Positions 18,236 through 28,205 of a stretch of DNA of 56,409 nucleotides are shown here, one piece after another. The DNA comes from Desulfobacula sp. (GTDB taxonomy: Bacteria; Desulfobacterota; Desulfobacteria; Desulfobacterales; Desulfobacteraceae), in contig NZ_JABZFL010000003.1 in the NCBI RefSeq assembly GCF_014237455.1, positions 1 through 56,409 of the forward strand, written 5' to 3'. Made by a program: the position numbers and the translations under genes. Position 1 is the first letter of the stretch; each line of letters begins with the position of its first letter. The notes under the pieces are model-generated. The model worked only from the letters and a program-made list of their open reading frames with translations, had not been told where the DNA came from and made no database searches.

Positions 18236-19863
18236 TTTACCGGGTTTCCAGGTGCAACCGATTTATCAAAATTGGAAGCCGACAGTTTTTTTTTATGGCT
18301 TTTGGGTTTAATTTTATTTGTATCAATTCTTGGAAATAAAATGTCCGGCTTTTCAATGATGGTTCCTTTTTTAATCTGTCCCCAGGGGAATGTTTCTTCC
18401 AGGGAGTAGAAGCCCTTTTCTCTTTTTTCCATGCAAAGGGTTTCTTGCATTTTTAAAGATGTTTGCGGCATAATGGGGTATATCAGGCAGGAAACAACCC
18501 TTAACCCTTCGATTAGATTGTAGAGGACTGTCCCAAGGATAAGAACATTGGCATCATCCTTGGCCAGTGTCCAGGGCGCAGTCGTGTCAATATATTTATT
18601 CATGATGCTGATAAATTGCCAGATGGCCCCGACCCCTTTGTGGAACTCACAAAGAGACATGGCCTGCTTGAATTCATCAACGGCTTTTTTTGCATCAGAC
18701 GCCAAAGACAGGTTTTTTTGTTTCTCAATTTTGGCATCCGATCCTTTTACTTCACCCGTAAAATATCTAGAGTTCATGGAAAGGACTCTTGAAAAGAGAT
18801 TTCCAAGGTCATTGGCAAGATCCGAGTTGATTCTTGACACAATGGTCTCCTCTGTGAAATTGGCATCCAGTCCAAAAACCATCTCCCTCATTAGAAAGTA
18901 TCTGAACGGATCAATTCCGTATTTATTTGTCACCTGGATAGGATCTGTGACATTGCCGATACTTTTTGACATTTTACTGCCTTTGACATTCCAGAACCCA
19001 TGGACATTCAATCCATTATAAATTTCAATATCGGCGGCTTTCAGCATAATGGGCCAGTAAATTCCATGGGGTTTGATAATATCTTTGGCCACAAAATGAC
19101 GGGTACTCGGCCAGAATTTTTTAAAAAGTTTGCCATCAGGATACCCCAGCGCTGAAATGTAATTTACAAGGGCATCAAACCATACATAGGTGACATAATC
19201 TTCATCAAAAGGCAGAGTGATTCCCCAGGTCAACCGGGATTTTGGACGGGAAATGCAAAGATCTTCCAGGGGGTCTTTTAAAAAAGAAAGAATTTCATTC
19301 TTGTACTGTTCGGGCTGGATAAAATCGGGATTGGCTTTGATATGGTTGATGAGCCATTTTTGGTATTTGCTCATCTTGAAAAAATAATTAGATTCCTTGA
19401 TGACTGTAGGCTCAACACCATGGTCCTGGCATTTACCGTCTATAAGCTCTCTTTCCTGATAAAACCGTTCACACCCGAAACAATAAAGCCCCTCATAGCT
19501 TGAAAAGTAGATATCCCCTGAATCATAAATTTTTGAAAGAACATCTTTAACCACTTGAATATGGCCTGGATCTGTTGTTCTGATAAAATGGTTATTTTTG
19601 ACATTTAATACCGGCAACAGATCCTGAAAAAGCTGACTGATATTATCAGCATATTCTTTTGGGGTTGTTTCTTGTTTTTGGGCTGCCTGGACAATCTTAT
19701 CTCCGTGTTCGTCCGTTCCTGTCAGAAAAAAAGTTTCATAGTCATCTATCTGTTTGAATCTCGTTGCAACATCAGCAGCAATGGAGGTGTATGCATGCCC
19801 CAGATGGGGTTTGGCATTCACATAATATATGGGGGTTGTAAAAAATTGTTTTTTGGGTTTCAT
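18232..19863 (-). CDS. metG: methionyl-tRNA synthetase
   Basis: The 543-residue enzyme charges tRNA-Met. It has FFTTPIYYVNAKPHLGHAYT with the HIGH variant HLGH (20-23), a zinc knuckle with CFGC (128-131) and Cys145/His148, and KMSKS at 297-301. It lacks the C-terminal tRNA-binding (EMAP-like) domain of longer enzymes; the tail is instead short and Lys-rich. It overlaps ricT upstream and the PBP gene downstream by 4 bases each, indicating translational coupling. Confidence 0.95.
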   Translation of the reverse strand: MKPKKQFFTTPIYYVNAKPHLGHAYTSIAADVATRFKQIDDYETFFLTGTDEHGDKIVQAAQKQETTPKEYADNISQLFQDLLPVLNVKNNHFIRTTDPGHIQVVKDVLSKIYDSGDIYFSSYEGLYCFGCERFYQERELIDGKCQDHGVEPTVIKESNYFFKMSKYQKWLINHIKANPDFIQPEQYKNEILSFLKDPLEDLCISRPKSRLTWGITLPFDEDYVTYVWFDALVNYISALGYPDGKLFKKFWPSTRHFVAKDIIKPHGIYWPIMLKAADIEIYNGLNVHGFWNVKGSKMSKSIGNVTDPIQVTNKYGIDPFRYFLMREMVFGLDANFTEETIVSRINSDLANDLGNLFSRVLSMNSRYFTGEVKGSDAKIEKQKNLSLASDAKKAVDEFKQAMSLCEFHKGVGAIWQFISIMNKYIDTTAPWTLAKDDANVLILGTVLYNLIEGLRVVSCLIYPIMPQTSLKMQETLCMEKREKGFYSLEETFPWGQIKKGTIIEKPDILFPRIDTNKIKPKSHKKKLSASNFDKSVAPGNPVK

Positions 19864-20672
19864 GATTTTGCAGATCCCGTGATGGAGTTAGCCAGTTGTT
19901 GGATGGTTTTTTTTATTTCGGTATTATCCTCTAAACGGATAGTGACGTTTTCTTTCAGTACATTCTGTCGGATAACTTTTCCCTTTCCTTCTTTTATTGT
20001 GATTTTTTTTCCTAATTTCGGCATCTTGCGTTTAAGGCTTTTATAGGTTTCATTTTCAAAGGTCAGACAGCACATCAGTCTGCCGCAAACCCCGGAAATT
20101 TTTGTGGGATTCAATGACAGCCCCTGTTCTTTTGCCATTTTGATGGAAACCGGCTCAAACGTACGCATAAAAGAGGAACAGCAAAGTTCTCTTCCGCATT
20201 TGCCGATACCGCCGCAATGTTTTGAAAGATTGCGAATCCCGACCTGACGCATTTCAATCCGAATACTGAACTCTTTTACCAGAAGTTTGATGAGTTCTCG
20301 GAAATCAATCCTGCCGTCGGCAGTATAGAAAAAAGTCAACTTGTTACGATCAAATGTACTTTCAACACTGAACAGATTCATGAGAAGATCTAAATCATTG
20401 ATGCATCGGATGCAAAAATCAAAGGCTCTTTTTTCAAGCTTTTTTATTTCTTCTCTTTTTAGAAAGTCTTTTCGGGTGGCAATACGGACAATCTGCTTAA
20501 ATTTTCTTTCAACATTTTTAACTTCAACAGGCGGGATGGCAATTTTACCAAACCCAAGACCCTGCTCAGTTTCTACGATTACAGCATCGCCCTCTTTCAG
20601 TACAAAAGCATCGCTTTTGAAATCATATATTTTCCCTGCTGTTTTAAATTTAACACCAGTAACTTTAATCAT
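19860..20672 (-). CDS. ricT: PSP1-domain regulatory iron-sulfur protein, RicT/YaaT family
   Basis: The 270-residue protein has the PSP1 C-terminal domain with conserved cysteines in GIGKCGRELCCSSFM and SGVCGRLMCCLTFENETY, which in Bacillus RicT contribute to iron-sulfur binding in a complex affecting RNA processing. The holB-ricT-metG order is also known from Firmicutes and many Deltaproteobacteria. The role here is by family only. It overlaps holB by 8 bases. Confidence 0.85.
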   Translation of the reverse strand: MIKVTGVKFKTAGKIYDFKSDAFVLKEGDAVIVETEQGLGFGKIAIPPVEVKNVERKFKQIVRIATRKDFLKREEIKKLEKRAFDFCIRCINDLDLLMNLFSVESTFDRNKLTFFYTADGRIDFRELIKLLVKEFSIRIEMRQVGIRNLSKHCGGIGKCGRELCCSSFMRTFEPVSIKMAKEQGLSLNPTKISGVCGRLMCCLTFENETYKSLKRKMPKLGKKITIKEGKGKVIRQNVLKENVTIRLEDNTEIKKTIQQLANSITGSAKS

Positions 20673-21723
20673 AAATCAACTTTCTTTTATTTGTAACAAT
20701 TTTAAGGAAAAATTTATCCAATGTTAATCTTAGTGTACAGTTCGATGCCAGCCTTTTTTCCGTTTCGTACAGATAGCCGGTCCAGTCACATTTTTTTTTT
20801 GTTTCAACCATCTGACTAATATCTGTAAAAGTGTCAAAAAAATCAAGATTAACTATTTTTTTTGGATAAAGTTTAAAAATCATTAAATCCCGGAAAAACG
20901 TTTTCATAATGGCAATGGTATCATCAATAAGGTCGGGATTGAAGCTTAACTTTTGTGACAGCATCAATCCTTTTGATATGCAGGTGTTTGAGTCTGTTTT
21001 AATTATGCTTGCAAGGGCGTTAAGTAACCACTTTCTTCTTTTGATCCAGTCGACATCTTTTGCCTCATCATTTTGATTTAAATTTAAATACATCATTGCT
21101 TTTTTCAAGTCAGAATCGGCAGTTTTCGATGCAATTACAGCCATTTGTTTATCAACCTTGAATTCATTGATCAGACAGTGTTCAATGAGTTTGTCGGTCA
21201 ATGGTTTAAATCTGATGTCACGGCATCTCGAAATAATGGTTGGAAGAAGGTAAGATGTCTTGTTGGCAATGAGGATGAAAAATGTTTTTTCAGGCGGTTC
21301 CTCAAGCATTTTCAATAATGCGTTCTGGGCCTGTCTATTCATTAGATCTGCATTCAGAATCAGTACCATTCTGAATTTGGCCTCATTAGGCTTGGATGAA
21401 ATGGCTAATCCCATTTCACGGATTTGGGATATGGAAATTATTTTTTTCCCTTTTCGAAGGTTGACACATAGGATATCAGGGTGGCTGTCTGCATCTATTT
21501 TACGGCATGACTTGCAAGTATTGCAGGCAATGCCCGTCTCTTTCAAACAATTACACGCCTTTGCAAATAGAAATGCCGATTCTTTTCTTCCTGTATTCTC
21601 ATTCCCGGAGAAAAGAAGGGCATTTGGAATTTTTTTTGCCTGAATGATTATGGTTAACTCAGATACAGTTTTAGCTTGGTATTGCAGTTGATCAAAATCA
21701 GACATGGTTTGATCAATACCCAT
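20665..21723 (-). CDS. holB: DNA polymerase III subunit delta-prime
   Basis: The 352-residue clamp-loader subunit has the AAA+ fold of the delta-prime family: LFSGNENTGRKESAFLFA in place of a standard Walker A, a zinc module (ACNCLKETGIACNTCKSC), QAQNALLKMLEEPPEKTFF, and the sensor-1 region LLPTIISRCRDIRF. The weak Walker A is normal for delta-prime, which does not hydrolyse ATP. It lies 3 bases after the IHF/HU gene. Confidence 0.88.
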   Translation of the reverse strand: MGIDQTMSDFDQLQYQAKTVSELTIIIQAKKIPNALLFSGNENTGRKESAFLFAKACNCLKETGIACNTCKSCRKIDADSHPDILCVNLRKGKKIISISQIREMGLAISSKPNEAKFRMVLILNADLMNRQAQNALLKMLEEPPEKTFFILIANKTSYLLPTIISRCRDIRFKPLTDKLIEHCLINEFKVDKQMAVIASKTADSDLKKAMMYLNLNQNDEAKDVDWIKRRKWLLNALASIIKTDSNTCISKGLMLSQKLSFNPDLIDDTIAIMKTFFRDLMIFKLYPKKIVNLDFFDTFTDISQMVETKKKCDWTGYLYETEKRLASNCTLRLTLDKFFLKIVTNKRKLIYD

Positions 21724-21726
21724 GTG

Positions 21727-22002
21727 TTAATAATCTACCCGCTCCTTTAGTTCTTTTCCGCATTTGAAAAACGGGAGTCGTTTGGGAGGAATAGTGACTT
21801 TTCGGCCGGTTTTCGGGTTTCGGCCTGTATAGCTTTTATACCCTTTTATATGAAAACTGCAAAAGCCCCTTATTTCAACCCTTTCTCCTTTGACAAATGA
21901 ATCGGAAAGCGAGTCGAAAAATATTTTAATGACCTCTGAAGCTTCGGATTTTGTCAGGTTTGCTTTCTCTTTTAATGTCGAAATCAATTCAAGTTTATTC
22001 AT
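21727..22002 (-). CDS. HU/IHF-family DNA-bending protein
   Basis: The 91-residue protein starting at MNKLELI has the whole HU/IHF fold with GRNPKTGRKVTIPPK, the DNA-intercalating arm and its Pro. I chose the start at 22002 because AGAGGAAGT precedes this ATG; the frame is open to another ATG at 22017. It is closer to IHF subunits than to HU by its RVEIRGFCSF segment. It lies in the run NusG-like - IHF - holB. Confidence 0.9.
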   Translation of the reverse strand: MNKLELISTLKEKANLTKSEASEVIKIFFDSLSDSFVKGERVEIRGFCSFHIKGYKSYTGRNPKTGRKVTIPPKRLPFFKCGKELKERVDY

Positions 22003-22082
22003 ACTTCCTCTTTCCATGTTGAATGATGAAATCTTATCATTTTTTTACGTTTCTAATTAAAATTTCATAAAAAGTCAAGGGG

Positions 22083-22607
22083 TTATGCAAATAAGCCAGG
22101 GATTTTTTCAACACTGTCTTCCTCTGCTTCAACACCGGCATATTGTCCTAAAACCTCTATTTTGATAACAACACGTCCTTTCCCTTTATATCTTGTAAAT
22201 TCTCCTTTTACCCCCGCCATAGGACCTTCTGAAATTATCACAGGGTCTCCTTTTTTTATGCGGACATTTTCCCCTGTGATCAGATCCATGTTGGCACTGG
22301 TCAGGATTTTTAAGGATTCAATCTGTTCTCCCGGCACGGGTACCGGTCCGGATTGATTGCCCAGCAGTCTGACGGCCCCGATCGTTTTTAAAACATTCAG
22401 CTGGTCACCAGAGTTAAATGTTGATTTTACAAAAACATATCCCGGAAAAAGCGGAGTTTCTATCATAAGGCTTCTATCTTTCCGCCGACTTTTCCGCTTT
22501 GTTTTGGGCAAAAACGCCTCAATTTTTTTTTTAACAATATTAGTATACACTATTTGCTCAAAGTTACTTCTTGTCAGAAGGGCAAACCAGTTTAATTGTT
22601 CAATCAT
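22083..22607 (-). CDS. NusG-family specialised antitermination factor (RfaH/LoaP/UpxY-like)
   Basis: The 174-residue protein has an N-terminal NGN domain (NWFALLTRSNFEQ, LFPGYVFVK) and a C-terminal KOW domain (KKGDPVIISEGPMAGVKGEF). It begins with WFALLTRSNFEQ, as specialised NusG paralogues do, and it is not next to secE, rplK or rplA as housekeeping nusG is. Its gene overlaps the end of lptD by 4 bases. I infer it helps RNA polymerase read through a long operon, perhaps for surface polysaccharide, but its target is not visible here. Confidence 0.82.
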   Translation of the reverse strand: MIEQLNWFALLTRSNFEQIVYTNIVKKKIEAFLPKTKRKSRRKDRSLMIETPLFPGYVFVKSTFNSGDQLNVLKTIGAVRLLGNQSGPVPVPGEQIESLKILTSANMDLITGENVRIKKGDPVIISEGPMAGVKGEFTRYKGKGRVVIKIEVLGQYAGVEAEEDSVEKIPGLFA

Positions 22608-24850
22608 TTTGTACCAAACTCTCCGATTCCATGAAGATTTATGAGAAAGGTAATACTCTGTTCGCCACTTGATTCTGCAAAATAAAGATTAAAGGTCCAG
22701 CAGGATTTTTTCAAGGCAAACCCTGCCTGTGTTTCCACGGTCTTTTCTTCTTTCAGATTTTTTTCAATGGAGTAATATGCGGTTAATTCATCTGTCAAGC
22801 TGACATCGATTTTTGAATACAGGGATTCTGATACGTTGAATGTATATCGATATTCTGTTCTTAAGGAGTCTCCTCTGTTGTCTTGCAGTGTATTTCCGAT
22901 GTTTAAGGTTTTAAAATGGTTGTCATAGGGGGACCAGGAAAGATCCATATCAAGGGTTATAAAATCGTTAGGATTCAGTGCCGTATCAAGTGTAATATCT
23001 GAAAACGGTTTGGGTTCGTTATCTCTTTTCTTTTTAATATCATAACTTTGGTAAAGTTTAATATAGGCAAAATCGCGGTAGGTTGTTATCTCTTTCCCTT
23101 TAGGAGTTATTCTCGATTTTTTGGAAGTGAAATTGTTGGTAAGAGACCAGGTAAGAAGATTTTGTTCCACAATCCTGTCCAGAGAATCAAAAGAGGGCAG
23201 ATCATTTTGGATGACGTTTGGAATGAAGGCGTATTCAAGTTTCGGGATGATTTCATGTCTGGTTTTATCTGCAAATTCATTATTGGGATTAAAGATTTTA
23301 ATCAGCTTTGTGGACAGCTGGGCACCAATATCATACATCTGTCTTGTCCGGAGATTGTCGGAATTGCCGTTAATATCCGTGAACTCATTGGTATGCCAGA
23401 TGGTCTGGCGCACACCAACAGACGGCTCAAAATTAAAAAATTTGCCAAGTTTTAAGGGCAGATAGATTTTGGGGTAGATATCTGCCCGCTGACCTTTTAC
23501 AAGCGTTGCACTTGTATCTTTCCGGTAAAAAGATCGATATTCGGTATCAAGGGAATAAAAGAATTTTGAAGGACCGATCTGCTGTTTGAAGGCATCAAAC
23601 TGAATGCTTGGAAGCGTTTGCAAGGTTGTGTCATCGATATTTTGGCGCCGGGCATGAATATTGTCATACCACAACGCATCGACATTCAATGTGTAGGTTG
23701 ACCATGATTTGCTGATGTTCAGCCAGTTTTTCCGGATATGGTCATCATATTCATCCAGACCCCGGCCAAATTCTTTTTCAAAATATTCCTTGGTTGCGGT
23801 GTATCCGGTAAATCCGTCTTTAAATTCATGAAGATAATCTTCATCACTGGCGATGTCGATATCCAGCTTGGCTGTAAATCCATTGGGAAGGTCCTGGTTG
23901 TGTTTCATCCTGAACCAGAAGCGATCCGTATTGGTCCTTTGAGGGGTGGTGGAAAAACTATAGTTTTCTGTATTGATTGTTCCATCATCTATTTTATCAT
24001 CTTCAAGAAAATCAAAAAACAGGGACCCTTTTGTTTTGTTATCCATTATATATCTGAATTCGGTTCCCAATTTTGTTCCTCTGTCAGACATATAATCTAC
24101 ATAAACGCTTGCATCGGTATTCCTTGAAATAGCGACAAAAAGAGGTTGCTCGTATTCAACTCCCTTTCTGTCCGATGATGTGAATCTCGGGAATAAAAGA
24201 CCTGTCTGGCGTTTGGTCTTGACAGGAAATACAAGAAAAGGGCTGTAAACGGCAGGGATTTTTTTTGCCCAGAGAACAGCATGACTTGCAAGTCCATACC
24301 CTTCAATAGTAACTTTTATGTTTCTGCCGGAAATTTTCCAGTCAGGAGAGTCGCCTGCACATGATGTGATGGACCCTTTATCGGCACTATAAGAAAATTT
24401 ACCCGTCTTTCTAATATTCTCACCATTAATATAAAAATTGTTTTTCTGGATAAAAATGGTCCCTTTGTTGATGGTGCCGATTTCTGTTGTAAGATTGATA
24501 TTCATGGCATTGCAGGAGATGGAATCTTCGCCGGATATCAAAAGAACATTGCCCTGGGCAAAAGCATCCTTTGTTTTATTTGAAAATTCAACATAATCAG
24601 CTTCAAGTCTGGTTTTACCCCCGGTGATGACAACATCATCTTCAGCAATATATAGATTTTTTTTGTTGTCAAAGGTCACTGCCTGCGCGGAGATATGCCA
24701 GGGAATCTCTTTAGGATTTTGGGGGAGAACATTTGCTTTTGCAACCCCCTTGGTTGATACAAATATGTAAAAAAAAGCAAATATTACAAAAAGTGGCAGA
24801 TACCGTTGCCTTAACAAACAGACCATGTTCTTTCCAGTAAAAAATTGCAC
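22604..24850 (-). CDS. lptD: LPS-assembly outer membrane protein LptD
   Basis: The 748-residue protein has a signal sequence (LPLFVIFAFFYIFVSTKGVAKA), an OstA-like beta-jellyroll (about 50-160, with YIAEDDVVITGGKTRLEADYVEF), and a long C-terminal LptD barrel (LPLKLGKFFNFEPSVGVRQT, ending in a barrel strand). It inserts LPS into the outer leaflet with LptE. It is the first gene of the long minus-strand run, 98 bases from the divergent cysteine synthase fusion, so promoters for both must lie in 24851-24948. Confidence 0.9.
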   Translation of the reverse strand: MQFFTGKNMVCLLRQRYLPLFVIFAFFYIFVSTKGVAKANVLPQNPKEIPWHISAQAVTFDNKKNLYIAEDDVVITGGKTRLEADYVEFSNKTKDAFAQGNVLLISGEDSISCNAMNINLTTEIGTINKGTIFIQKNNFYINGENIRKTGKFSYSADKGSITSCAGDSPDWKISGRNIKVTIEGYGLASHAVLWAKKIPAVYSPFLVFPVKTKRQTGLLFPRFTSSDRKGVEYEQPLFVAISRNTDASVYVDYMSDRGTKLGTEFRYIMDNKTKGSLFFDFLEDDKIDDGTINTENYSFSTTPQRTNTDRFWFRMKHNQDLPNGFTAKLDIDIASDEDYLHEFKDGFTGYTATKEYFEKEFGRGLDEYDDHIRKNWLNISKSWSTYTLNVDALWYDNIHARRQNIDDTTLQTLPSIQFDAFKQQIGPSKFFYSLDTEYRSFYRKDTSATLVKGQRADIYPKIYLPLKLGKFFNFEPSVGVRQTIWHTNEFTDINGNSDNLRTRQMYDIGAQLSTKLIKIFNPNNEFADKTRHEIIPKLEYAFIPNVIQNDLPSFDSLDRIVEQNLLTWSLTNNFTSKKSRITPKGKEITTYRDFAYIKLYQSYDIKKKRDNEPKPFSDITLDTALNPNDFITLDMDLSWSPYDNHFKTLNIGNTLQDNRGDSLRTEYRYTFNVSESLYSKIDVSLTDELTAYYSIEKNLKEEKTVETQAGFALKKSCWTFNLYFAESSGEQSITFLINLHGIGEFGTK

Positions 24851-24948: not shown

Positions 24949-27234
24949 ATGACATTTTCAATTATAGATTCCATTGGCAACACCCCTATTGTTGAGATAA
25001 AAAAAATGAACCCTGTAAAAGGGGTTAAAATTTTTGCTAAACTTGAATATATGAACCCCGGCGGCTCTGTTAAAGACCGGGCTGCGCTCTATATGATCAA
25101 CGCGGCAGAAGAATCCGGTGAATTGACCAAAGACAAAATCGTTATCGAAGCGACCAGCGGGAATACGGGTATTGGCCTTGCCATGATTTGTGCGGTCAAA
25201 GGATACAAAATTGCGCTTACCATGGCTGAAAATGCAAGTGAAGAGCGGAAAAGTATTCTGCGCGCAAGAGGTGCTCAGATCATTTTAACCCCCAGACGTC
25301 TGGGGTCTGATGGTGCCATTGAGGAAGCATACAGGCTTGCCAGGGAAAATCCGGATAAGTATTTTCTTGCCGATCAGTATAATAACGAAGCCAATTGGAA
25401 AGCCCATTATTATACCACGGGGCCTGAAATTATTGATCAGACCAATGGAAAGGTTTCTTGTGTTGTCGCAGCCATTGGAACGAGTGGGACGCTTATGGGG
25501 CTTTCCAGAAGGTTGAAAGAGCATAATAAGGATATCAGGATTGTATGTGTCGAGCCGTATCTCGGGCATAAGATCCAGGGGTTGAAGAATATGAAGGAAT
25601 CTTATACCCCTGAGATCATGGAGAAAAGTCGTCTTGATGAAATAATTAATATTGATGATGATACCGCTTTTGATGCTGCCCGCAGCTTAGCGGTAAAAGA
25701 AGGACTGTTTGTCGGGATGAGCAGTGGTGCAGCCATGGCTGCTGCCATTGAGGAAGCCAAAAAAGTTAAAAAAGGAGTTATTGTGGTCATCTTCCCGGAC
25801 AACGGGGAACGGTATTTGTCCACCAGCCTTTTTTCTGTGGAAAAACATATTGCTTTGTCACTTTTTAATACACTTTCAAAAACCAAGGTGCCATTTGAAC
25901 TGCTTGAAAAAGAAAAAGTATCTGTATACACCTGCGGACCGACTGTTCATGGAAGACTCAATATAGGGCAGCTTAGAAGGTATGTATTTACAGATTTGCT
26001 CATCAGATACATCGAGCACCACAATATTGCTGTCAATCATGTGGTCAATATCACAGACTATGATGACAAGACCATCCAGGGGTCGCAGCAGGCAGGGAAG
26101 ACACTTTCCGAGTTTACACAAACCCACATAGATTTTTTCAAAAGTGATCTTGAAAAATTGAATATCAGGCAAGCTGATGCATATCCCAAAGTATCAGATC
26201 ATTTTGATGAAATGATTGATGTGGCAAGACAGCTGCAATCAAATCAGCATGCCTATGAAAAACTGCATTCTCTTTATTTTGATATTGAAAGCCAGCCCGA
26301 GTATGGCGATTTTTCAAGTACCAATCTTGATAAGATAAGACTAGGCGCAACAGTGGATCTTGACGAGTATGAAAAGCGTAACCCAAAGGATTTTACATTG
26401 TTAAAACGGGTTCGCCTTTCAGAACTCAAAAGAGGCATAGGGGTTAAGACCCAATGGGGCAATGTACGTCCCTCTCTTCATTTGCAGTGTGCCGCCATTG
26501 CCATGAAGTTTTTGGGAGAAAGTTTTGATATTCAAACCGGCAGCCGGGAACTGATATTCCCGCATCATGAAAACGAAGTTGCCATTGCAAGAGCTGCAAA
26601 AGGGGCAACCCTTGCAAGGTATTGGCTGCATTGTAATCCGGTTCGCTATGACGGTTCTTTAGGGGCTCCGGGCATTGAAACGCTGATCCTTGAAGCCCTT
26701 GTCAACCAGGGGTGGGAGCTTAATACTATTCGATTCTGGCTGATTTCCAATCATTACAGAAAAACCCTGCTGCTGTCAGAACAATCCCTGAAACAAGCGC
26801 AATATACATTGGATAAAATTAACCGGTGTCTTGCCACCTTGAGTATCATTAAAGAAGGAAAGGAGTTTGAAGGGATTGATCAATTTATATATGATATAAA
26901 ATTGGCTTTTCTTCAATCCATGGAAGATGATTTAAGGATTTCAGGTGTTATTTCTTCTTTGCTGGCAAATGTGAAAACCATCAACAGGCTGATCAATCAA
27001 AATGGAATCAATCCGGAAGGTGCCCAAAAACTTGTGGATTGTTTTAAAGACATTGATTCTGTTCTTAAAATTTTTAGCTTTGCTAAAAAAAAGGAATACT
27101 CGGATGAAATTCAAGATCTTATAAGGGAACGTGAACGCGCAAGAGAGCAAAAAGACTGGAAACAGGCTGATAAGGTTCGGGAACGATTAACAACTTTGGG
27201 CATCAGCGTTCATGATAAAAAGGCAAAACCATGA
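24949..27234 (+). CDS. cysteine synthase fused to a cysteinyl-tRNA synthetase-like domain
   Basis: Residues 1 to about 300 are a PLP cysteine synthase: NPGGSVKDR with PLP Lys42, SGNTG at 70-74, GTSGT, and MSSGAA. Residues about 310-761 have the cysteinyl-tRNA synthetase fold: YTCGPTVHG, PHHENEVA, LRFW-like IRFWLISNHYRK, and the C-terminal helical REREQKDWKQAD-type tail. The zinc ligands Cys329, Cys514, His539 and Glu543 are kept. HIGH is changed to NIGQ (338-341), RPGWHIEC to RPSLHLQC, and KMSKS is lost or deleted (RYDGSLGA, 566-573). The enzyme may channel new cysteine to tRNA, or the synthetase half may have another job. The next gene overlaps its stop (ATGA). Confidence 0.85.
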   Translation: MTFSIIDSIGNTPIVEIKKMNPVKGVKIFAKLEYMNPGGSVKDRAALYMINAAEESGELTKDKIVIEATSGNTGIGLAMICAVKGYKIALTMAENASEERKSILRARGAQIILTPRRLGSDGAIEEAYRLARENPDKYFLADQYNNEANWKAHYYTTGPEIIDQTNGKVSCVVAAIGTSGTLMGLSRRLKEHNKDIRIVCVEPYLGHKIQGLKNMKESYTPEIMEKSRLDEIINIDDDTAFDAARSLAVKEGLFVGMSSGAAMAAAIEEAKKVKKGVIVVIFPDNGERYLSTSLFSVEKHIALSLFNTLSKTKVPFELLEKEKVSVYTCGPTVHGRLNIGQLRRYVFTDLLIRYIEHHNIAVNHVVNITDYDDKTIQGSQQAGKTLSEFTQTHIDFFKSDLEKLNIRQADAYPKVSDHFDEMIDVARQLQSNQHAYEKLHSLYFDIESQPEYGDFSSTNLDKIRLGATVDLDEYEKRNPKDFTLLKRVRLSELKRGIGVKTQWGNVRPSLHLQCAAIAMKFLGESFDIQTGSRELIFPHHENEVAIARAAKGATLARYWLHCNPVRYDGSLGAPGIETLILEALVNQGWELNTIRFWLISNHYRKTLLLSEQSLKQAQYTLDKINRCLATLSIIKEGKEFEGIDQFIYDIKLAFLQSMEDDLRISGVISSLLANVKTINRLINQNGINPEGAQKLVDCFKDIDSVLKIFSFAKKKEYSDEIQDLIRERERAREQKDWKQADKVRERLTTLGISVHDKKAKP

Positions 27235-28205
27235 CAAATCAATTCTTATTTTTTCCCTTCACCCATATTACCCGGAACCAGTTAAACACGGTTTTAGCTT
27301 TTTTCCCATCATTTCAATATTTACCCGGCCTTGTGGATTTTAAGCATCATCAAGCGTTGCAGGAATTATTTGAACAGGGGAAAATCCGTCCTTTATTTTC
27401 ATCACCTGAGGAGCTTGTAACGGTTGAACAAAAAGTCGGACAATATTTGGAATGGGTCCAGATCCATAAGGGGAATGAACACAGTCTCAAATCACTTTTA
27501 AAAGACAATCCTTATTTTACAAATGATACAGATGTGACAGTGATTAAATCACAGATCAAAGGGATTAAAGAAGACAAAGGAGGCGACACCGCTTTTTTAC
27601 CAGATGAACCAGCCCTGCAGCGCAATTTATTGTTTTTAAAGATGGCTCAATTGTGTGATGAGCAAAACGAACGCATTGATTTGGAGTTAAAAGACCTGGA
27701 TACAAGTCGTGATACGCTTATTTCAACCTTGCGCGGCTCAGAGAGCCCCTTAAGTGATGGCAAAGACAGAAAAACAGAGGGCTATAAAGATTTGGGACTT
27801 ATGATGACCCGCGAGCGGATTTATGCCTGGTCAGGATGTATGGTTCAAAAGGGGGCATTGAAACAAGAAGAGGGGCGGCAGCCTCTATTCATCACTACCA
27901 GTGAGGCGGTATTTGATTATCTTGAGTCGAATTGCCAAGATGTTGTAAATGCCCTTGACATTGATAAGATAAAAGTGCATGAAAATGAATGTGAAAATAA
28001 AGGCGAATGGCAACATCATTTTTGTGACTATTTGATGCGTGCAATTCAAGGAAATGGAATCCGGAAAAATGATATACCAGAAGTGAATGACAGGTGTTCG
28101 CTTTCAGGGAAAATCAAATTGAGCTTTTTTTCCGGGAAGGATATAAACAAGCTCTTTAATTGTTCAGACAAACAAGTCTTTGTATGTCTGATCAAATTAA
28201 AGTGA
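27231..28205 (+). CDS. unrecognised protein coupled to the CysK-CysRS fusion
   Basis: The 324-residue protein is soluble, with no signal or membrane helix. It begins FLFFPFTHITRNQ and is helix-rich in the middle (about 110-170, charged). The ATGA overlap with the upstream fusion gene argues for co-translation. I do not recognise a family. It has scattered Cys and His (for instance WQHHFCDYL near 260 and a C-terminal RCSLSG) but no clear metal motif. Confidence 0.7.
   Translation: MTNQFLFFPFTHITRNQLNTVLAFFPSFQYLPGLVDFKHHQALQELFEQGKIRPLFSSPEELVTVEQKVGQYLEWVQIHKGNEHSLKSLLKDNPYFTNDTDVTVIKSQIKGIKEDKGGDTAFLPDEPALQRNLLFLKMAQLCDEQNERIDLELKDLDTSRDTLISTLRGSESPLSDGKDRKTEGYKDLGLMMTRERIYAWSGCMVQKGALKQEEGRQPLFITTSEAVFDYLESNCQDVVNALDIDKIKVHENECENKGEWQHHFCDYLMRAIQGNGIRKNDIPEVNDRCSLSGKIKLSFFSGKDINKLFNCSDKQVFVCLIKLK

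Follow-up and report, generated by a model that had tools for sequence, protein, structure and literature searches.

HisZ, a paralogue of histidyl-tRNA synthetase (HisRS), holds the histidine-inhibition site of HisG, while in Gcn2 uncharged tRNA is bound by a HisRS-like domain (both from excerpts of PMC4335047). In Desulfobacterales a cysteinyl-tRNA synthetase (CysRS) termed CysRS*, belonging to the SelC* system, has no anticodon-binding domain and is reported to be active (excerpts of PMC9437257 and PMC7609411). Synthetase paralogues also occur in peptide synthesis, and the excerpts of the account describing them (PMC2922099) do not mention a fusion of CysRS with cysteine synthase; no description of such a fusion was found among the matches listed for the open-licence PMC literature. 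Here we analysed a fused gene of this kind from Desulfobacula sp. (assembly GCF_014237455.1), located in positions 1 to 56,409 of contig NZ_JABZFL010000003.1; this whole stretch of 56,409 nucleotides is called the window. A single ATG-started open reading frame at positions 24949-27234 of the forward strand encodes a protein of 761 amino acids. We propose, with a probability of about 0.42, that this protein is a CysM-type cysteine synthase whose C-terminal pseudo-CysRS would sense tRNA-Cys and/or cysteine and control CysM. Comparison at the sequence level established that the pyridoxal phosphate (PLP) site is intact, that the fold is predicted to be kept, that the anticodon tail is present, that the ATP/adenylate signatures are gone and that a separate canonical CysRS is encoded in the genome.

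An earlier note on this DNA had described one uninterrupted frame joining a complete cysteine synthase to a full-length CysRS-like half, and Pfam analysis of the 761-residue product confirmed this. Lys42, the SGNTG loop, the zinc ligands Cys329, Cys514, His539 and Glu543, and the replacement of HIGH by NIGQ and of RPGWHIEC by RPSLHLQC were all found at the positions claimed there. Conservation was counted in two sets of fusion proteins. The order set contains 62 proteins from the same order, identical proteins and frames shorter than 700 amino acids (e.g. L018) being omitted; set A2 consists of the window protein and 53 proteins drawn from the 74 named full-length ones. The two sets probably share species and hence are not independent. 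The structures 1li5 and 1u0b, which we take to be E. coli CysRS, served as alignment references. The features of the fusion gene are as follows.

24949..25839, + strand: cysteine synthase (CysM/CysK, PLP) half, residues 1-297; PF00291 (PALP) 253.8 bits at residues 7-284, TIGR01136, Foldseek match 2bhs
25072..25074, + strand: Lys42, which we take from the known enzyme family to be the PLP Schiff-base lysine; invariant in 62/62 order-set and 54/54 A2 members
25156..25170, + strand: SGNTG loop, residues 70-74, presumably binding the substrate carboxylate as in the cysteine synthase family; intact with Lys42 in 62/62 order-set and 54/54 A2 members
25894..26802, + strand: CysRS-like catalytic domain, residues 316-618; PF01406 243.2 bits, Foldseek match 1u0b
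25933..25935, + strand: Cys329, zinc ligand, aligned with Cys28 of 1li5/1u0b; cysteine in 54/62 order-set members
25960..25971, + strand: NIGQ at the HIGH position, residues 338-341; HxGH in 0/62 order-set members
26467..26490, + strand: RPSLHLQC at the RPGWHIEC position, residues 507-514, with zinc ligand Cys514; in the order set Ser509 55/62, Gln513 59/62, Cys514 51/62
26563..26577, + strand: His539 to Glu543 (HHENE), the remaining zinc ligands; in the order set H539 61/62, E543 53/62
26659..26673, + strand: LGAPG in the KMSKS columns, residues 571-575; ungapped alignment to 1li5/1u0b, loop length 37
27094..27225, + strand: anticodon-binding tail (CysS_C), residues 716-759; PF23493 40.0 bits

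A DALR_2 domain was scored at 21.7 bits, slightly under the Pfam cut-off of 22. The fusion exceeds the cut-off of the cysKM model TIGR01136 (370.4 against 344.15 bits) and remains below those of the CysM equivalog TIGR01138 (367.7 against 394.2) and the CysRS equivalog TIGR00435 (321.1 against 340). The score for the MshC model TIGR03447 is far under its cut-off (160.8 against 485.1 bits), and an MshC-like role would need an ATP site; the cysteine-conjugating activity considered in the earlier note is therefore unsupported. An AlphaFold model of the fusion has a mean predicted local distance difference test score (pLDDT) of 85.8. It matches the CysRS-tRNA-Cys complex 1u0b (TMt 0.81, E 1.4e-35) as well as 2bhs, a cysteine synthase B (TMt 0.93), so that each half is predicted to retain its fold.

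In the window protein the signature motifs of the adenylate site have been replaced. Besides HIGH and RPGWHIEC, the HGGGxDL segment is altered and reads QTGSREL. KMSKS is absent, as noted before, and the small deletion assumed as its cause is ruled out: the loop from Trp559 to Arg595 has 37 residues, the same as in 18/18 canonical CysRS measured, and alignment to the CysRS of 1li5/1u0b is gapless across this region. Because the loop keeps its canonical length a deletion was rejected, and because there is no gap LGAPG was assigned to the KMSKS columns, so that the motif has been substituted. This spacing is also the commonest in the fusion sets (44/62 in the order set, 43/54 in A2). The tail had been described as normal, which holds as far as Asp756; beyond it the protein lacks the GTxW terminus of canonical enzymes. 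Its residues Arg728, Arg732, Trp737, Asp741, Arg744 and Asp756 align with Arg423, Arg427, Trp432, Asp436, Arg439 and Asp451 of 1li5/1u0b, several of which we assume to contact the anticodon of tRNA-Cys. Compared with a functional CysRS, the window protein thus has neither HIGH nor KMSKS (NIGQ and LGAPG instead) and carries all four zinc ligands (CCHE) together with the anticodon-tail residues (RRWDRD), though without the terminal GTxW.

The second, canonical cysS that the earlier note had suggested looking for is present in the host genome (3.48 Mb, 113 contigs, 97.8% complete), where it stands alone on a separate contig and encodes 482 amino acids (PF01406 459.7 bits, compared to 246.1 for the fusion). 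This rules out the fusion as the sole CysRS of the organism; annotators should accordingly not take this gene for the cysS of the cell, since the canonical one is located elsewhere in the genome. A paralogue with an altered catalytic site was thus found alongside a canonical synthetase, as in a pseudo-synthetase regulator.

Fusion genes are widespread in the phylum, 154 of 395 sampled genomes matching fusion residues 195-761 at E <= 1e-85, with open frames of 629-1403 amino acids among the matches listed. Within the same order, some CysRS match at E <= 1e-20 was obtained for 139 of 146 genomes, and about 120 of the 146 have a fusion-family match among the matches listed, several of them cut at contig ends. 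A scan reaching beyond the phylum yielded 80 named loci (the best 80 of 534 relatives), 74 of which contain a full-length fused frame, including one in Desulfonema magnum 4be13, whose chromosome is complete. These 74 full-length loci and the complete chromosome among them make an assembly artefact very unlikely; an assembly chimera or a recent local fusion was rejected in view of the 74 loci, the spread across the order and the phylum and the single clade described below. Among the named relatives listed, the nearest, at 89% identity, is a metagenome-assembled genome of Desulfobacula. Outside the order, where 140 genomes with the fusion were found, a stand-alone cysS was detected in 30/30 tested, being split across two frames in one genome (G201).

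A tree was calculated from 60 CysRS-type halves, among them 19 of the 62 order proteins, hand-picked for spread, and all 20 fusions fetched outside the order, which had been selected to cover a range of identities; its alignment included the columns of the zinc ligands and of KMSKS but not those of the tail. All 39 fusions form one clade (support 99/98), so that the fusion looks like one old event in this sample. On the opposite side lie 18/18 canonical CysRS (support 100/99), and the host's own CysS is placed apart from the fusions. Good support was obtained for 29/57 inner branches; the letter composition is odd in seven rows, and L098 is a long branch of uncertain place.

Several further observations were made during these searches. 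A search of plasmids gave 1,170 matching records, one of which covers at least 80% of the query in one place; this match lies on separate frames with a third frame between them and not on one fused frame. The fusion is also present on a contig (L177) whose label names an archaeon, Methanococcoides sp.; this is probably a mis-binned bacterial contig. In-frame stops (TAA, TGA) lie within the fusion matches G087:C122 and G017:C68, where sequencing error and decay could not be distinguished.

Neither HxGH nor KMS[KRQ]S is present in any of the 62 order-set proteins, and the four zinc ligands are complete in 43; the five charged tail residues are kept in 61/62, the remaining frame ending early. The values for A2 (n=54) are 0 for HxGH, 0 for KMS[KRQ]S, 43 for the zinc ligands, 53 for the tail residues and 54 for the PLP set. 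In the 39 fusions of the tree the PLP lysine and [TS]SGNT are found in 39/39, HxGH in 0/39 and a KMSKS-type motif in 6/39. The four zinc ligands are retained in 20/39 (nine changes on the tree), and the five tail residues in 37/38 (one change, Arg to Lys). All CysRS sites are intact in the 18/18 canonical enzymes examined. A fusion in which HIGH and KMSKS are both intact was sought and was absent among the 39 members. Judged by these counts, the clade has kept the PLP enzyme and the end that reads tRNA, and cysteine binding in part, whereas the adenylate chemistry is eroded.

These counts bear on the two possibilities left by the earlier note, namely that the protein gave up aminoacylation, perhaps as a cysteine sensor, or that it is a divergent but working enzyme. 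The former is the better supported one, as a canonical cysS is present, HIGH, GGGxD and KMSKS are altered family-wide, and in 19/39 sampled fusions the zinc site is affected as well. A working enzyme would activate cysteine and charge tRNA-Cys, or pass the cysteine to another amine, coupled to its synthesis. The intact zinc ligands and anticodon tail of the window protein are in line with this, as are the KMSRS or KMSQS motifs of 6/39 fusions and the coexistence of HxGN and KMSKS in related paralogues. We nevertheless regard it as improbable, since HIGH, GGGxD and KMSKS are all replaced in the window protein, HxGH and KMSKS are not found together in any of the 39 fusions, a stand-alone cysS accompanies the fusion in the host and in all 30 genomes tested, and both equivalog scores, for CysRS and for MshC, are under their cut-offs. 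An enzyme that is still active is less likely in the window than among the least eroded relatives; those that keep HxGN/L/V with KMSRS or KMSQS remain candidates. The least eroded fusions are L085 (HLGN, RPGWHIEC, KKMSRSLGN), L089, L093, L103, L104 and L092, the last with one zinc ligand lost; in L097-L100 three of the four zinc ligands are gone.

Some CysRS paralogues found in the same searches show other combinations of sites. One genome has two fusion copies, the typical L063 and the less eroded L062 (G073:C44; RPGWHLEC, KMMSD); L062 is without the anticodon tail because its frame ends early. L202 (G182:C1:592800-596000; HLGN, KMAKS) takes a position in the tree intermediate between fusions and canonical enzymes, and its frame continues into what we take to be glycosyltransferase-like sequence. 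L200 (G518) and L201 (G428), paralogues of 427 and 424 amino acids, have no anticodon tail, an intact KMSKS and the zinc ligands CDHN; they are perhaps CysRS*-like or amino-acid ligases, any assignment to CysRS* being provisional because their zinc ligands differ.

The chief alternative to the proposed sensor is that the half serves structure only, although we consider this unlikely. The CysRS-like half would then be an appendage for oligomerisation, stability or partner docking, with the tail kept for folding, and its persistence despite the loss of the ATP site and, in 19/39 fusions, of the zinc site fits such a role, as does the close linkage of the partner gene described below. The tail is a small separate domain, however, and it is dispensable for the CysRS fold, as it is missing from L200, L201 and CysRS* (excerpts of PMC7609411); retention of five charged tail residues in 37/38 fusions moreover suggests that they are used.

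If the CysRS-like half is a sensor, it would no longer charge tRNA and would bind tRNA-Cys through the anticodon end. In members that still have the zinc site, the window protein among them, it may bind cysteine as well. Occupancy of these sites would be relayed to the attached CysM, and cysteine synthesis would thereby track the cysteine supply or the extent to which tRNA-Cys is charged. As the SGNTG loop for the carboxylate does not vary, the PLP half probably acts on a free amino acid.

Several points weigh against the sensor. The model places the two halves uncertainly relative to each other (predicted template modelling score 0.62, linker pLDDT about 40), so no coupling surface is visible in it. 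Another contig of the host carries a stand-alone cysK with an adjoining cysE-like gene (162.3 bits, below the family cut-off of 210.65). The fusions L085, L089, L103 and L104 keep KMSRS, RP[GS]WHIEC and all zinc ligands, together with HxGN or HxGL, and for this reason cysteine activation may persist in some of the least eroded fusions; HxGN is also paired with KMSKS in two short CysRS paralogues related to them. Because 19/39 sampled fusions are short of the full set of zinc ligands, cysteine sensing cannot be the function of the whole family. Finally, conservation of the tail could reflect a need in folding and not in tRNA binding.

Two further activities were considered for a protein with this architecture, and both appear very improbable. 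In the first, cysteine would be made on the tRNA, with the CysRS-like half holding a seryl- or phosphoseryl-tRNA-Cys for conversion by the PLP half. Such a reaction needs a PLP sulfhydrylase beside a tRNA-Cys reader, as found here; the invariant SGNTG carboxylate loop, however, is expected for a free amino acid and not for an ester, and a canonical CysRS is present. Moreover, SepRS (TIGR00470) was over the cut-off in 0/21 relatives (best score 32.2 bits against 380.65), which disfavours a SepRS-type route; tRNA-dependent cysteine synthesis was rejected on this basis. In the second, the CysRS-like half would produce cysteine persulfide like CARS/CPERS, an activity also raised in the earlier note and hardly credible for this protein. 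The cysteine site is retained in the window protein and bacteria of this kind have a sulfidic lifestyle, both of which would suit a persulfide producer. PLP is bound by the E. coli enzyme at K73/K76 (KIIK) and K266/K269 (KMSK) (excerpts of PMC10655014). Both KMSK lysines are lost in the window protein, which has Leu571 and Pro574 in those columns, and it is mainly their loss that disfavours the persulfide route. In the KIIK columns the first lysine is kept (Lys374) and the second is Gln377; this position does not discriminate, because the second lysine is also missing in 12/18 canonical enzymes.

Downstream of the fusion lies a gene that is likely its partner:

27231..28205, + strand: likely partner gene, 324 amino acids, member of a family of about 330 amino acids with an FPFTYI-like start; its start overlaps the stop codon of the fusion

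A partner gene is found on the same strand, at most 1,200 bases downstream of the fusion, in 56 of the 62 named loci with enough sequence. In two families outside the order it adjoins the fusion on the upstream side (G251 and, by coordinates, G422). Phylum-wide, with partner detection at E <= 1e-5, fusion and partner occur together in 97 genomes, while 8 have only the partner, 57 only the fusion and 233 neither of them (Fisher p = 2e-41, uncorrected for shared ancestry). From this observed association the protein of about 330 amino acids probably works together with the fusion.

The partner in the window has no Pfam or NCBIfam match, and a Pfam scan of 62 partner relatives gave weak matches only, in one member each. 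Its structure model is confident (pLDDT 84.8); a Foldseek search against the PDB gave no match at E <= 0.001, the best having E 1.1. Assignment to a known family was rejected on the basis of the Pfam scan and the Foldseek search. The neighbourhoods of the partner in 20 further loci, among them L220 beside the fusion and five in genomes without the fusion, indicated no function. In four of these 20 (L218, L222, L231 and L235) the partner adjoins candidate menaquinone genes, identified by eye, which we take to be of the menaquinone (futalosine) pathway. The partner match G067:C34 contains an in-frame TAA, for which sequencing error and decay could not be told apart.

The linkage also raises the possibility, which we think doubtful, that the partner receives Cys-tRNA-Cys or cysteine from the CysRS-like half, which would bind it first, for a further reaction. 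Proximity downstream of the fusion in 56/62 named loci, the upstream-adjacent partners of the two other families and the occurrence of the fusion in 97 of 105 partner-bearing genomes all agree with a delivery role. Set against this, 57 of the 154 fusion genomes have no partner detectable at E <= 1e-5, the partner was present in just 1/20 loci outside the order when the fetched flanks were searched, and it is without known family or fold.

On the other side of the fusion (window 18841-24850, - strand), an LptD-like gene is present in 28 of 41 loci compared. Other upstream neighbours, identified by eye, are presumably NusG/RfaH-like, IHF-like, DNA polymerase III delta-prime-like and YaaT-like genes and a gene for MetRS.

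If the proposed sensor function is true, a cysteine pseudo-synthetase regulator contained in one polypeptide would be added to the few known, of which HisZ and Gcn2 are compared below, and the series of less to more eroded sites would allow the loss of aminoacylation and the gain of control to be traced step by step. The locus also points to an uncharacterised partner family which, in one of the major groups of sulfate-reducing bacteria, is tied to the metabolism of cysteine.

Compared with CysM (O-acetylserine sulfhydrylase), the likeness of the fusion extends over the whole N-terminal half, including the PLP lysine and the SGNTG and GTSGT loops, and among PDB sequences 2bhs, a cysteine synthase B, matches it best. 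It differs in His207 and Gln-Gly-Leu-Lys-Asn 210-214, which are invariant in 62/62 order members and different in the aligned cysteine synthase B, in the 460-residue C-terminal half and in its score under the CysM equivalog cut-off. With CysS the fusion shares the predicted fold, the zinc ligands (in the window) and the anticodon tail, whereas HIGH, RPGWHIEC, HGGGxDL and KMSKS are altered and the clade is separate from that of the host CysS. CysRS* is likewise a second CysRS in related bacteria but a different protein, since the window fusion has an anticodon-binding domain and has lost the ATP motifs. MshC, the mycothiol cysteine ligase, is another CysRS paralogue outside translation; the fusion is far under the MshC cut-off and, unlike MshC, keeps the anticodon tail.

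The closest parallels in proposed logic are the two HisRS-derived proteins. In the HisRS-like domain of Gcn2, as in the fusion, a pseudo-synthetase is joined to an enzyme, and tRNA binding is kept, in the fusion only putatively; Gcn2 is a eukaryotic kinase, whereas the effector of the fusion would be a biosynthetic enzyme. With HisZ it would share the principle of an eroded synthetase attached to the enzyme for synthesis of its amino acid. HisZ, however, forms a subunit of its own, and amino acid and synthetase class differ from those of the fusion; regulation of HisG is known there, while for the fusion regulation is proposed. By analogy, the fusion could be a bacterial counterpart of Gcn2 and HisZ, in which tRNA-Cys charging, read by a dead fused CysRS, directly gates a biosynthetic enzyme, in sulfate reducers and throughout their phylum, together with a new family of about 330 amino acids, a scenario that in this full form we rate as unlikely. 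The fusion itself is an enzyme of amino-acid biosynthesis to which a synthetase-derived and probably regulatory half is attached.

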